Notes under the pieces: model-generated
Databases searched by the model: none
Told to the model about the DNA's origin: nothing
Seen by the model: only the letters and a program-made list of their open reading frames with translations
From: Promethearchaeota archaeon
Lineage (GTDB): Archaea > Asgardarchaeota > Lokiarchaeia > Sigyniarchaeales > SOKP01
Length of the DNA: 37,281 bases
Direction of reading: 5' to 3'
Assembly (NCBI GenBank): GCA_014730165.1
Contig: WJIS01000225.1
Coordinates: 1-37,281, forward strand
Part shown: positions 19,562 to 25,111 of the stretch, piece by piece
Layout of the letters: each line of letters opens with the position of its first letter
How positions within the stretch are numbered: position 1 is the first letter of the stretch
Made by a program: the position numbers and the translations under genes

Positions 19562-20806
19562 ATGCAACAAGAAACAACATATCTGAAGTTATTTGGTAAA
19601 AATTTGATAAGTTTTCAAAAGCGGGACACAGGAGAAATAATAGGAACAGGATTGCTTAATCCCCTCATTGAAAGACTTAATATAGTCACGATGTTTGTCA
19701 TCCAAGCAAAATTCTATAGAGCATACAAAGAATTAGGTAAATGGAATGGAAAACGAGTTGCGAATACATTTGCGCCGCCTGTAAGGAGTGGAGCAATGTG
19801 GAGAGCTTTATTAGCATCATTAAAATCACGTATTTTTCATAGTCACTATCCAGTGGCAATGACTTTTGCTGTTACCTATGATTGTCAATGTAATTGTATC
19901 CACTGCAGTGCGGGAAGACATAAGCATGAGAATAAGCTTCAGTTGAATATAGCTGAAGCTAAGAAACTTATTGATGATAGCTTGAAACTGGGCATTTCAA
20001 TTCTTGCTTTTACCGGTGGTGAACCCCTCTTAAGAAAAGACATATACGAACTTATCTCTTATGTAGATAAGAAAAAAGCGGTACCATTGTTGTTTACGAA
20101 TGGGGAATTTTTAACAACTGAAAATGTAAAAAGACTAAAGAATTCGGGATTATATTCTCTTTTTGTTAGTTTAGATAGTCATACTCCCGAAGAGCATAAT
20201 AGATTAAGAAAAAGAAAAGACCTTTTCCAAAACGCAATTGAAGGTATAAAACGAGCAAAGCAAGAGGGATTATTTGTAGGAATCTCCACTTATGCCACTC
20301 GAACAGGAACTAAAAATAATGAATTCAAGAAATTATATTCCCTTGCGAGAGAATTGAAACTCCATAATGTAATGCTTTTTGATGGTGTAGCAACGGGTAA
20401 AATGTTGCATGATACAAGCGAATTACTAACCGTTGAACAGCGGCAAAAAATTAGAGATTTTTCATCATATATATTTAATCATAATGTTATTCCGCCGTTA
20501 TCCTCGCAATCATGGCAAAACTCCATCGAGGGATATTTAGGAGGGATCGGATGTTTAGCAGCAAATATCCAATATTACGTATCTGCTTATGGAGATGTAG
20601 CACCGTGTGATTTTACTCCACTTTCATTCGGAAATATTAGAAAAGAACCACTTAAAAAAATATGGAAGAAAATGATTACTCATCCTGCATATAATTATCG
20701 AAGCACATTCTGTAGGATGCAGCATCCAACCTTTCGGAAACTTTTTATCGATCCTATACCCGATGATGCAAGTTTACCTTATAATATTGAAAATTTTAGT
20801 GTTTAA
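19562..20806 (+). CDS. Radical SAM/SPASM-type protein
   Basis: 414 residues. The [4Fe-4S]-SAM motif is C108-x3-C112-x2-C115 (YDCQCNCIHCSAG), followed by the SAM-binding TGGEP (151-155). C331 (GIGC), C349 (VAPCDF, then SFGNI) and C384 (TFCRM) form a partial SPASM-like auxiliary-cluster region, as in enzymes that modify peptides. A 100-residue N-terminal extension precedes the barrel. No small precursor peptide gene was seen next to it, so the substrate is unknown. The last 107 coding bases (20690-20796) are repeated at 21704-21810. The stop overlaps by 3 bases the stop of the opposite-strand PIN gene. Confidence 0.9.
   Translation: MQQETTYLKLFGKNLISFQKRDTGEIIGTGLLNPLIERLNIVTMFVIQAKFYRAYKELGKWNGKRVANTFAPPVRSGAMWRALLASLKSRIFHSHYPVAMTFAVTYDCQCNCIHCSAGRHKHENKLQLNIAEAKKLIDDSLKLGISILAFTGGEPLLRKDIYELISYVDKKKAVPLLFTNGEFLTTENVKRLKNSGLYSLFVSLDSHTPEEHNRLRKRKDLFQNAIEGIKRAKQEGLFVGISTYATRTGTKNNEFKKLYSLARELKLHNVMLFDGVATGKMLHDTSELLTVEQRQKIRDFSSYIFNHNVIPPLSSQSWQNSIEGYLGGIGCLAANIQYYVSAYGDVAPCDFTPLSFGNIRKEPLKKIWKKMITHPAYNYRSTFCRMQHPTFRKLFIDPIPDDASLPYNIENFSV
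20690..20796 (+). repeat. 107-bp direct repeat, copy 1 (3' end of radical SAM gene)
   Basis: The last part of the radical SAM gene, nearly identical to 21704-21810 at an offset of 1014 bp: three mismatches by hand count. It ends 6 bases before the PIN gene's stop codon. This copy is the functional one. Confidence 0.9.
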
Positions 20807-21228
20807 GATATATTTGTTGGTACCAATCCTTTAAAATGACTATCAAAGGTTCCTAGAAATTTGCATTTAAGACGTTTATACAAAACTAAAATTGAGCAAT
20901 CGGTAAATGAGAGACGGTTATTTGAGAATTTTTTGAATAACTTCCAAGAATTTTCAAAATCAATTATAGTTATTTCAATTAGATGAATGCGTGGGCTTGA
21001 TAGAATATATTTCCCAATATCTTTTGCAAAATCGATATTTTTTAATCTAACCAATGCTAATGTGACAACTTCATCAAATATATATGTGGAAGTATATATT
21101 TCTCCAAATTCATTCTTTAAAAATCGTTTCATCCATAGTTGAGCTTGATCAAAATTTTTATCTTCCTTATTCTTTAAACCTATTAAAAATCCTGTGTCTA
21201 GAAATACTCCCATTCCATTAATCCTCAT
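20803..21228 (-). CDS. vapC: PIN-domain ribonuclease toxin (VapC-type)
   Basis: 141 residues; internal M6 is an alternative start that would remove the overlap with the antitoxin. Acidic site: D11 (FLDTGFLIG), E53 (FDEVVTL), D110 (SFTDCSILV), D129 (TFDSHF), complete and in order. The first residue after the last active-site block and the stop lie against the end of the radical SAM gene. It follows the antitoxin gene with an 11-bp overlap. It would cleave a structured RNA unless held by its antitoxin. Confidence 0.88.
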   Translation of the reverse strand: MRINGMGVFLDTGFLIGLKNKEDKNFDQAQLWMKRFLKNEFGEIYTSTYIFDEVVTLALVRLKNIDFAKDIGKYILSSPRIHLIEITIIDFENSWKLFKKFSNNRLSFTDCSILVLYKRLKCKFLGTFDSHFKGLVPTNIS

Positions 21229-21490
21229 CTATTTCATATAAATACTTATCTACCTTTTCTGATAAGTCAGAGATACCTAATGAATAAGTTTTTTTTAACC
21301 CTGTCCATGCGGGATCCCTCTCTAATGGTGGCAATTTTTCAGTACTTTTTAATCCCTCAGATGATGCAGCATTTTCAATTAATTTACCTATAAATTCTTT
21401 CTTAGAGATTTTCTTGCCTTTTAAGGTTAGGTATGCGATTATCTTATCTAAAAGTTTTGCATGTTCTTTATCAATTCTTATAGTACTCAA
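21218..21490 (-). CDS. vapB: Antitoxin of the PIN toxin (VapB-type, probably RHH)
   Basis: 90 residues. Residues 1-45 (MSTIRIDKEHAKLLDKIIAY ... KKISKKEFIGKLIENA) have the strand-helix-helix pattern of a ribbon-helix-helix DNA-binding domain; the rest is an acidic tail likely to contact the toxin. It overlaps the PIN gene by 11 bp. The 21-bp palindrome at 21535-21555 lies upstream and is a likely operator. The start ATG is the only good one in frame. Confidence 0.78.
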   Translation of the reverse strand: MSTIRIDKEHAKLLDKIIAYLTLKGKKISKKEFIGKLIENAASSEGLKSTEKLPPLERDPAWTGLKKTYSLGISDLSEKVDKYLYEIDED

Positions 21491-21534
21491 TTTGATTCAC
21501 ATTTTATATAATTGTATACTTTCACACAAGTATA

Positions 21535-21555
21535 TTAATATATTTAATATATTAA
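21535..21555. promoter_or_regulatory. Perfect 10-bp-arm palindrome upstream of the antitoxin
   Basis: TTAATATATT, one T, AATATATTAA: all ten pairs match around one central base, 45-65 bp upstream of the antitoxin start. It is entirely A/T, so chance is higher than for the 600-622 palindrome, but its position and the shared ATTTAAT centre argue for an operator or TATA/operator overlap. Confidence 0.5.
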
Positions 21556-21703
21556 AATATCGATATTCTTCTATTTTTTGATTCTTAAAAATACAATATT
21601 GCTTGTATATCTATTCAAAAGAGTTATTCTTTCTCTCCGAACTTATCTCATTTAAAATTTTAGAAGTTTGAAAATGCGGAAGAAGATAAGTTCTCGTTCC
21701 GTT

Positions 21704-21810
21704 TATAATTATCGAAGCACATTCTGTAGGATGCAGCATCCAACCTTTCGGTAACTTTTTATCGATCCTATACCCGATGATACAAGTTTACCTTATAGTA
21801 TTGAAAATTT
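21704..21810 (+). repeat. 107-bp direct repeat, copy 2 (dead radical SAM gene end)
   Basis: Nearly exact duplicate of 20690-20796. One of three changes turns an AAA codon into TAA (TTTCGGTAACTT), so this copy cannot encode the C-terminus. The upstream sequence is unrelated to the gene, so only the gene end was duplicated or retained. With copy 1 it encloses the second toxin-antitoxin pair. Confidence 0.9.
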
Positions 21811-22032
21811 CAATTTAAAAACAATAAAATAGCGCGATTAAGTTTACTCATAAATTGGACTTGTATAATACATAATCTCCAATAATATATATCGTCTCTT
21901 AGTTCTCTCAGAATATTTTTGAAAAATCTAAAAATGAGCAAATAAACTTAATATTGTTTAAAAATGGTATTTTTATTAATTAGAAGATGTATATGGGATA
22001 AATGAAAGAAATAAGGAAATAGAACTTTTTTA

Positions 22033-22365: not shown

Positions 22366-22785
22366 ATGACAGAAACTAGTGAAATTAGTCAGCAATATCA
22401 AAAAATAATCAGAGAACTCCATTTTTTAAATCCAAATAAAAAAATTAAAGAAATTAACAAGGATGTTAAAAATTTTCTCTTTAATTCATTTTTAAATGAG
22501 ATTGAAAAGTGGAAATTTTCAAATTTTATTACAATTGATAAAATTCGAAAGGATATAAAAAAACAGCAATTGCAAAAATCAAGACAACCTTTTAAATTAA
22601 GGGTTCTTAAGGACGATAAAATCAAAAAGGAATCACAAAATTTAAAATTTAAAAAAATTCAATCTAGTCTAAACAGAAAAGAATTTTTTGATAAGCTTGA
22701 TTATCCTGGTAATTACAGCAAATCTGAATTGTTCTACATTAATCACACAGATAAAACATATATAAAAAGAAAATCTTTTAAGTAA
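22366..22785 (+). CDS. Second gene of the PIN module, 5' part (probably antitoxin-like)
   Basis: 139 codons as read, strongly basic and helical, no recognised domain. SD GGTGA (22356-22360) lies 5 bases upstream of ATG, so translation starts here. The frame ends at 22783-22785, but the +1 frame opens at 22766 and continues with the same highly charged composition to 23026, so the original product was probably about 220 residues. The break falls in an A5/A4/T4-rich stretch (22764-22779). With the PIN gene 18 bp after 23026, it is the likely cognate antitoxin. Confidence 0.6.
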   Translation: MTETSEISQQYQKIIRELHFLNPNKKIKEINKDVKNFLFNSFLNEIEKWKFSNFITIDKIRKDIKKQQLQKSRQPFKLRVLKDDKIKKESQNLKFKKIQSSLNRKEFFDKLDYPGNYSKSELFYINHTDKTYIKRKSFK

Positions 22786-23026
22786 AGATAAAAACATTAT
22801 TAAAAAGACCCAATCATTTCCAGAAGTTCCTGAAACTGTGGATATTTTTAAACATGTAAAGGAAAAAGATAAGGAAAAAGTTGAAACAAAAGAAAAATTA
22901 GATCTCAGCTTAGAATTACGAAAAAGAATAAAGAATTTAGATTTAAAACCTATTAGTAAAGAAAAATTAGAAGACATTAATCTTTTAGACTATATAGGGT
23001 TTATCGATGAAGAAAATAACACATAA
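22766..23026 (+). pseudogene. Second gene of the PIN module, 3' part in the +1 frame
   Basis: 87 codons without a start of their own that overlaps the 5' part; GTG at 22838 would be the only alternative. It reads TQSFPEVPETVDIFKHVK then KEKDKEKVETKEKLDLSLEL and an acidic end INLLDYIGFIDEENNT. The Pro/acidic/Lys-rich style fits the toxin-binding tail of an antitoxin. Probably the C-terminal half of the 22366 gene, cut off by a frameshift at or near 22764-22779. Confidence 0.5.
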
Positions 23027-23044: not shown

Positions 23045-23467
23045 ATGAAGACTGTTATAGCAGATGCTTCCATTTGGATTGGAGCTTTAGTGAAAAAAGA
23101 CAAATGGCATGAAAATGGTAAGAAATTTTTGAAATGGGTGGATAATGAAGCAAATATAAGAGTTATTATTCCAATTGGAATTATTTATGAAGTTATCGCG
23201 GGAATATTGAATAAATCTTATGGGGGATTTGAAAAAGCTAATAAAGTTCTCAAATTATTTATGAATCATAAAAAATTTGAAGTCTATTATAACACGGAAA
23301 ATTCTTTTCAGGAAGTAATTGATATCTTTAGACAATATAAAATTTTTAGTTTAGTTGATGCTACAATAGTTATATTCTATGAAAATAAAAAATTTGATTT
23401 ATTATTTACAACTGATAAAGATTTTGATTCTTGTTCATTTATAAATAAATTAGAATATCCTGTCTAA
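23045..23467 (+). CDS. PIN-domain ribonuclease toxin (VapC-type), third in the window
   Basis: 140 residues, a complete PIN domain. Acidic site: D7 (IADASIWIG), E49 (IYEVIAG), D105 (SLVDATIV), D124 with extra D126 and D128 (TTDKDFDS). It follows a two-gene unit at 18-bp spacing, so it is likely the toxin of a module with unfamiliar partners. Its sequence differs clearly from the other two PIN genes. T7 at 23501-23507 could end the transcript. Confidence 0.87.
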   Translation: MKTVIADASIWIGALVKKDKWHENGKKFLKWVDNEANIRVIIPIGIIYEVIAGILNKSYGGFEKANKVLKLFMNHKKFEVYYNTENSFQEVIDIFRQYKIFSLVDATIVIFYENKKFDLLFTTDKDFDSCSFINKLEYPV

Positions 23468-23705: not shown

Positions 23706-24053
23706 TTAAAATGTAAGAATATGATATCCATTCTTGATATAATCAGTTAATGGTTGTCCCATATATCTCACATCAATACCCATTTCTTCTAAATCTGGAG
23801 AGACTCCATATTTATCAGCGCAAGCTTTACAAGCTTCAAGAATAACCCCTTTATCTTTCATATTGCCTAAAATTTTCCTTATTTCTTCATCTTCACAGGC
23901 TAATTTAGCTGATGGACCCCAAACTATAAATATTATGTCCTCCCACCAGCTATGTATTTTTGCATTCAGAGTATACATGAATACCATATTTAAGGCGACT
24001 TCTCTATCTCCACTAGTCCATAATACAACTAATTTATTATTTTTAGATGACAT
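23706..24053 (-). CDS. DsrE/DsrF-like sulfur-relay family protein
   Basis: 115 residues. The start LVVLWTSGDREVALNMVF, the FIVWGPSAKLACED loop and the C71-x2-C74 pair (EACKACADKYGV) match the DsrE-like family, small proteins that carry or sense sulfane sulfur. No DsrF/DsrH partner genes lie beside it, so it is probably a stand-alone member. Cytosolic. Confidence 0.83.
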   Translation of the reverse strand: MSSKNNKLVVLWTSGDREVALNMVFMYTLNAKIHSWWEDIIFIVWGPSAKLACEDEEIRKILGNMKDKGVILEACKACADKYGVSPDLEEMGIDVRYMGQPLTDYIKNGYHILTF

Positions 24054-24924: not shown

Positions 24925-25101
24925 GTGAATTACAGCCACCTCAAGGGGGATGCTTCAACCATTCGGTCAGGTCTTTGCGACACTCACGTCATTCGGTTGT
25001 TCGGAGCATTCACTGGCCCCCCATCCCAACGAACTCGTTATCCGCTGGGCTATGTTGATACTGTGAAGGGGTGAGTTTTCTCGCATAATCAATGATAAAT
25101 T
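24925..25101 (-). mobile_element. Non-autonomous IS200/IS605-like remnant, copy 2 (internally deleted)
   Basis: Shares block 1 (24925-25043) and block 2 (25064-25101) with copy 1 (1558-1677, 1836-1873); the 158 bp between them in copy 1 is only 20 bp here. Both subterminal features remain: the CTTGAGG hairpin side near 24940-24955 and GAAGGGGTGAGTTTTCTCGCAT followed by ATCAA (the TTGAT flank on the other strand). It fills the space between the stop of the DUF4184 gene and the start region of the dehydratase gene, so it sits in the latter's promoter. Confidence 0.6.
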
Positions 25102-25111
25102 TTTATTAAGA

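Follow-up and report, generated by a model that had tools for sequence, protein, structure and literature searches.

A VapBC toxin-antitoxin pair between two copies of a radical SAM gene end in a Loki-group archaeon: probable insertion with a long target duplication

Some integrase-mediated elements restore the 3′ end of their target gene and have direct repeats at their borders. Some restriction-modification systems insert with long target duplications that vary in length and are on the order of 100 bp, according to PMC3874152 and PMC1643837; the former credits Nobusato et al. 2000 (Nobusato, Uchiyama, Ohashi, Kobayashi, Gene 259:99) and Furuta et al. 2010. Toxin-antitoxin pairs are themselves described as highly mobile, and their fixation within populations is not understood (PMC2654758). 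In Sulfolobus islandicus, vapBC loci occupy variable genome regions and are taken to be mobile, nearly all of them having degenerate IS flanks (PMC3718332). In Microcystis aeruginosa, a ParE/ParD-like pair lies downstream of MaOC1 with an identical 152-bp direct repeat on either side (PMC7935541). A preliminary description of the locus studied here held that a PIN module between such repeats was not known to be described. In view of PMC3874152 and PMC1643837 on restriction-modification systems and of PMC7935541 on the ParE/ParD-like pair, that statement is too strong.

The repeated gene end and the VapBC pair

The locus lies in the window, by which we mean the whole 37,281-nt stretch of DNA that was analysed. 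It is one contig of a 4.65-Mb draft genome (392 contigs, 4.9% contamination) from a Loki-group Asgard archaeon. The relevant features, in window coordinates and with protein functions assigned from sequence, are:

19562–20806, plus strand: target gene, an intact radical SAM/SPASM gene of 414 aa (Pfam PF04055 and PF13186) with orthologs in many relatives; the near copy of the repeat forms its 3′ end
20657–20689, plus strand: upstream continuation of the repeat, near copy; 22/33 identical to the far copy
20690–20796, plus strand: near copy of the repeat, the live radical SAM gene end; ancestral at all three differing sites by comparison with the relative G001
20797–21703, no strand: the 907 bp inserted between the two 107-bp copies; the segment ends at 21670 when the 33-bp block is taken as part of the repeat
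20803–21228, minus strand: vapC-like PIN-domain toxin gene, 141 aa (Pfam PF01850, 2e-11, above the cut-off)
21218–21490, minus strand: vapB-like antitoxin gene, 90 aa, listed with a TTG start; assigned by position and co-conservation with vapC
21491–21556, minus strand: region upstream of vapB, common to other modules; outer limit of module homology
21671–21703, plus strand: diverged upstream part of the far copy, which breaks residues invariant in 32 orthologs
21704–21810, plus strand: far copy of the gene end, with an in-frame TAA at 21752–21754; the frame continues to a TAG at 21830–21832
23706–24053, minus strand: weakly YedF-like gene downstream; in G001 its ortholog is the direct neighbour of the radical SAM gene and flanks the empty site

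The preliminary description had placed a direct repeat of 107 bp with three mismatches at 20690–20796 and 21704–21810, and our alignment returned exactly these coordinates. The mismatches are found at 20738/21752, 20768/21782 and 20784/21798, and the first of them produces the in-frame TAA that had been reported for the far copy. The length of a 107-bp match excludes chance as its source, and a whole-genome search found two copies only of this sequence. Homology continues upstream for another 33 bp, giving an identity of 97% over 107 bp and 90% over 140 bp. The insert is therefore surrounded by a direct repeat in the range of tens to hundreds of bp, whether 107 or 140 bp are counted.

Within the 33-bp extension, no other place among the 74,496 on both strands of the window equalled the score of the 33-mer except the 33-mer itself. 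Transitions make up eight of its 11 changes, and a profile HMM made from 33 orthologous genes aligned 21671–21810 in one piece, spanning the whole 140 bp. A longer extension of the far copy past 21671, in a gapped alignment to 20563/21587, was rejected as not significant, since 11.6% of random places scored equally beyond the 33 bp.

The two parts of the repeat differ in divergence, with 11/33 positions changed in the 33-bp block and 3/107 in the rest (p = 6e-6). By comparison with G001 as the outgroup, the far copy carries the derived base at all three differing sites of the 107 bp, and the earlier assignment of the near copy as the live gene end holds. Additionally, within the 33-bp block the far copy departs from 32 orthologs at four positions where these do not vary. 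Because of these three derived changes and four altered invariant positions, the far copy is a non-functional, decaying remnant. Because the 33-bp block is far more diverged, the last 107 bp of the far copy were probably refreshed later by gene conversion and re-homogenised; we propose that gene conversion between the copies accounts for the two ages of the repeat.

The vapC and radical SAM genes converge tail to tail, and their stop codons overlap. The pair does lie between the repeats, as had been noted, but not with the exact fit described: it is tight on the near copy and further from the far copy. Consisting of a PIN protein beside a small antitoxin, it is classed as a putative VapBC type II toxin-antitoxin system, in which VapC would be an RNase that the antitoxin neutralises. 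Neither NCBIfam nor PADLOC gave a name for it, and no sequence-similar solved structure was found for VapC. The 90-aa partner has no match in Pfam or NCBIfam, so it is assigned to no known VapB family; it is kept beside vapC in 12/12 loci examined, and we call it VapB-like by position and co-conservation only. A search of Rfam gave no RNA family match.

Between the copies, the only ORFs are those of vapBC, with no transposase and no integrase among them. DNA homology to modules of other genera runs from ~20800 to 21556, covering the two genes and ~66 bp upstream of vapB. VapC orthologs that are 55–65% identical occur in 18 genomes of the class, with weaker ones in 3 more. The distribution of the module family is patchy: 22/85 genomes of the class have it, with one match each (E ≤ 1e-30), and none of four congeners does. 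Such a spread is consistent with a horizontally moving cassette.

Empty sites and comparable loci in related genomes

A relative with a single copy and no VapBC had been suggested as something to look for in related genomes, and G001 fits, at genus distance. This member of the same genus, whose radical SAM gene is 79% identical, is the closest relative to share the downstream gene; the genomes compared are nearly all drafts. In G001 the radical SAM gene, with its one end, is followed by ~117 bp and then by the ortholog of 23706–24053. The window interval is 2.9 kb longer, holding VapBC, the far copy, short ORFs and a PIN-like gene at 23045–23467; the extra 1.9 kb beyond the far copy lies outside the insertion that we propose for VapBC. 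No match was found between the intergenic DNA of G001 and the window from 21811 onward.

Two side observations concern this region and its target gene. The PIN-like gene at 23045–23467, the third in the window and a weak VapC match, is preceded by lysine-rich ORFs at 22366–22785 and 22838–23026 that resemble one broken gene; all are absent from G001. Copies of the radical SAM gene that have decayed or lost internal parts occur at G032:C177:1491–1586, G023:C18:64358–64540 and G010:C87:600–1460, and the first of these remnants sits where G013 has the whole gene.

Full empty sites are available for the same module family at a different gene. In G023, a module of the window's VapBC family separates an ERCC4-like nuclease gene from a TauE-like gene, and in G033, G065, G066, G068 and G071 these two genes are 92–111 bp apart with no VapBC. 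The ERCC4-like gene of G023 has its normal end beside vapC, while its last ~50 bp are repeated beyond vapB, where they lead into the native intergenic sequence that G065 and G068 also have, and from there to TauE. By this comparison, G023 is evidently an insertion with target duplication in which the far copy is the native end. With these sites, and with the single-copy, VapBC-free G001, the earlier suggestion of an insertion into a gene end with regeneration of that end is supported.

A different VapBC, with an AbrB-type antitoxin, is bracketed in G033 (contig C16) by the end of an MvhD-like gene, and 12 relatives have this end without PIN or AbrB genes nearby. That comparison covers the gene end and the downstream DNA, the gene past the far copy not being the MvhD neighbour in relatives. 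The reading of the far copy as the native gene end, which sequence comparison bears out in G023, is indicated in G033; for the window locus, the intergenic DNA of G001 gave no match that would speak to it.

Further VapBC pairs are bracketed by copies of a gene's 3′ end: that of an epimerase-like gene in G023:C23 (193 bp, 86.5%), of a 518-aa ORF in G010:C84 (310 bp, 98%) and of a 361-aa ORF in G088:C129 (183 bp, 76%). In G072:C184 the bracketing repeat (109 bp, 95%) copies mostly a gene-upstream region. The target differs from one insertion to the next, being a radical SAM, ERCC4-like, epimerase-like, MvhD-like or other gene. The repeat in G031 was considered as a parallel case and set aside, as its CACCACGGGGGAGGGA motif also brackets an unrelated VapBC in G068. 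This dispersed repeat was seen around the two unrelated VapBC at G031:C89 (L098, L185) and G068:C1 (L325, 1934–1975 and 2743–2783). In G014:C24 (L191), a VapBC sits amid several copies of a dispersed palindromic repeat (TTCATGAACCTTTCATGAA).

The window's other VapBC, with an AbrB-type antitoxin (632–898) and a PIN gene (879–1352), is bracketed by 180–258 and 1457–1535 (79 nt, 77%), the left copy lying just upstream of a minus-strand ORF that starts at 167. The repeat around 632–1352 is possibly an older case of the same process. A G+C-richer two-part repeat (108 nt at 90% and 46 nt at 91%), present at 1579–1881 and 24945–25109 with different spacing and no Rfam match, may be a non-autonomous mobile element.

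The frequency of bracketing repeats was compared with that at control positions. Using 400-bp flanks, repeats of at least 44 bits were found at 4/21 modules of the window's VapBC family, against 5/1190 random placements at 40 bits or more; 17/21 modules have no repeat. The four are the window itself, G031 and G014 with their dispersed repeats, and G023. Taken alone this count is weak, because one case is the window and two are dispersed repeats; counting G023 alone as independent gives a chance of ~0.08. A wider test covered 96 other Loki PIN loci with 800-bp flanks and 1986 control placements. Repeats of at least 90 bits were present at 6/96 PIN loci and 4/1986 control placements (p = 1.5e-6, p-values here being approximate because control placements share loci), and repeats of at least 150 bits at 4 PIN loci and 0 controls. 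At a loose 40-bit threshold the excess is modest (12/96 versus 84/1986). Four of the six strong PIN cases copy the 3′ end of an intact neighbour, one copies an upstream region and one (L301) resembles a dispersed repeat. Bracketing repeats at control loci were mainly found at tandem paralogous genes.

Possible origins of the arrangement

We consider it likely that a ~0.9-kb VapBC cassette lacking both transposase and integrase entered the radical SAM gene at its 3′ end, duplicating at least 107–140 bp of this target. The gene would have kept an intact end, the near copy, that meets vapC tail to tail, and the other end would have been left beyond the insert to decay. The joining would not have been site-specific. 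For its enzymology, we infer two possible routes. In the first, a captured linear DNA fragment would be joined into a break whose long staggered ends are then filled in. In the second, template switching during replication would copy the fragment in and re-enter the target some 50–310 bp behind the exit point. Either route would yield a duplication of variable length and would need no enzyme from the element. Insertions at gene ends would survive because, as we propose, the duplicated stretch makes the gene whole again. Recombination between the repeats would excise the module, and the cost of losing an addiction module would help it to persist. A later gene conversion would then have reset the last 107 bp.

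Three observations stand against this account. At the window locus there is no empty site from a close strain, G001 being at 79% and its intergenic DNA having no match to the far flank. The unequal divergence of the 33-bp block and the 107 bp calls for an added step. Lastly, since 17/21 family modules lack a repeat, most would have to be old, or many would have to enter otherwise.

The age contrast within the repeat would fit a tandem duplication, in which a former second radical SAM gene downstream was reduced by decay to its 3′ end, VapBC came to lie in between, and gene conversion from the live gene refreshed the 107 bp: the 33-bp block would be old and the 107 bp young. Solo 3′-end remnants elsewhere, such as that of G032:C177 at the whole-gene site of G013, point the same way. 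However, none of the relatives showed the radical SAM gene in tandem, and the homology of the remnant past 33 bp is not significant. Additionally, the far side in G023 consists of the last ~50 bp of the target and native flank, and relatives have no tandem gene there. The earlier alternative of a tandem duplication whose second gene was replaced keeps the age contrast in its favour and lacks tandem copies in relatives; it is less likely than insertion, and for this one locus we regard it as unlikely.

A site-specific integration by an element that carried its own att copy of the gene end, with its integrase since lost, would equally restore the gene end beside the insert and leave direct repeats at the borders. 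No integrase gene is present between the copies, however, and different modules, including members of one family, are found at unrelated targets with unrelated repeats. Because targets and repeats are unrelated between cases, the source of the repeat is the target, not the element. We judge this origin very improbable, and the likeness to integrated att-site elements drawn in the preliminary description is not supported, as the insert has no integrase and the target gene is different in each case.

Recombination between dispersed repeats, or insertion of an IS or MITE that duplicates a short piece of its target, is hardly credible here: the common CACCACGGGGGAGGGA motif brackets the G031 module and an unrelated VapBC in G068, but the window repeat is part of a gene and is found nowhere else in its genome. 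Transposons and IS elements have short duplications, inverted ends and a transposase, whereas here the duplication is 107–140 bp and only vapBC lies inside; by eye, the insert ends of seven cases have no common terminal sequence and no inverted repeat. An assembly artefact joining two strain variants of the gene end in one contig, conceivable in a draft of 392 contigs with 4.9% contamination, deserves next to no credence, given that a diverged 33-bp shoulder, an in-frame stop and a different downstream sequence set the far copy apart, and that independent draft genomes have the same architecture at other genes.

Insertion with a long target duplication is thus the explanation that we favour for the window. 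A broader version of it would make Asgard VapBC cassettes mobile units that enter by a recurrent pathway using host or trans-acting factors, with duplications of ~50–310 bp and a tendency to spare genes at their 3′ ends. We put this forward as a tentative generalisation that may well prove too broad.

Implications and comparison with known systems

How transposase-free toxin-antitoxin pairs pass from one genome to another is a standing question, and here occupied and empty sites come with duplications that can be measured. The hosts are Asgard archaea, the archaeal group nearest to eukaryotes. Insertion with target duplication would extend a mechanism proposed for restriction-modification genes to another class of addiction module, and would account for partial copies of neighbouring genes beside toxin-antitoxin modules. 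It also supplies a search rule for any genome collection, namely a module bracketed by a copied end of its neighbour. If Asgard VapBC cassettes are indeed mobile units, bare toxin-antitoxin pairs would have a general route by which to spread.

Unlike integrase-mediated elements, the window insert has no integrase, its kind of insertion varies in target, and the repeat derives from the target. The loci of Sulfolobus islandicus are likewise archaeal vapBC, but no IS elements were recognised in the window insert. The Microcystis pair resembles ours in being a toxin-antitoxin system just downstream of a gene, with direct repeats of similar length. In contrast, those repeats start 14 bp past the gene stop and have inverted repeats within them, no gene end is copied, and the text examined in PMC7935541 describes no empty site; the ParE/ParD-like pair may represent another instance of insertion with target duplication.

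Literature searches, with most subscription papers outside their reach, returned no VapBC or Asgard case of such an insertion, and novelty is provisional for that reason. The closest parallel is the insertion of restriction-modification genes as described in PMC3874152 and PMC1643837. Both involve a small addiction-type pair with no known mobile element, a long and variable duplication, and occupied and empty sites. Here, unlike in that case, the cargo is VapBC, the host is an Asgard archaeon, from a different domain of life, and what is duplicated is often a gene's 3′ end. Provisionally, then, the mechanism is one already known for restriction-modification genes, and what is new is its VapBC cargo and its occurrence in Asgard archaea.
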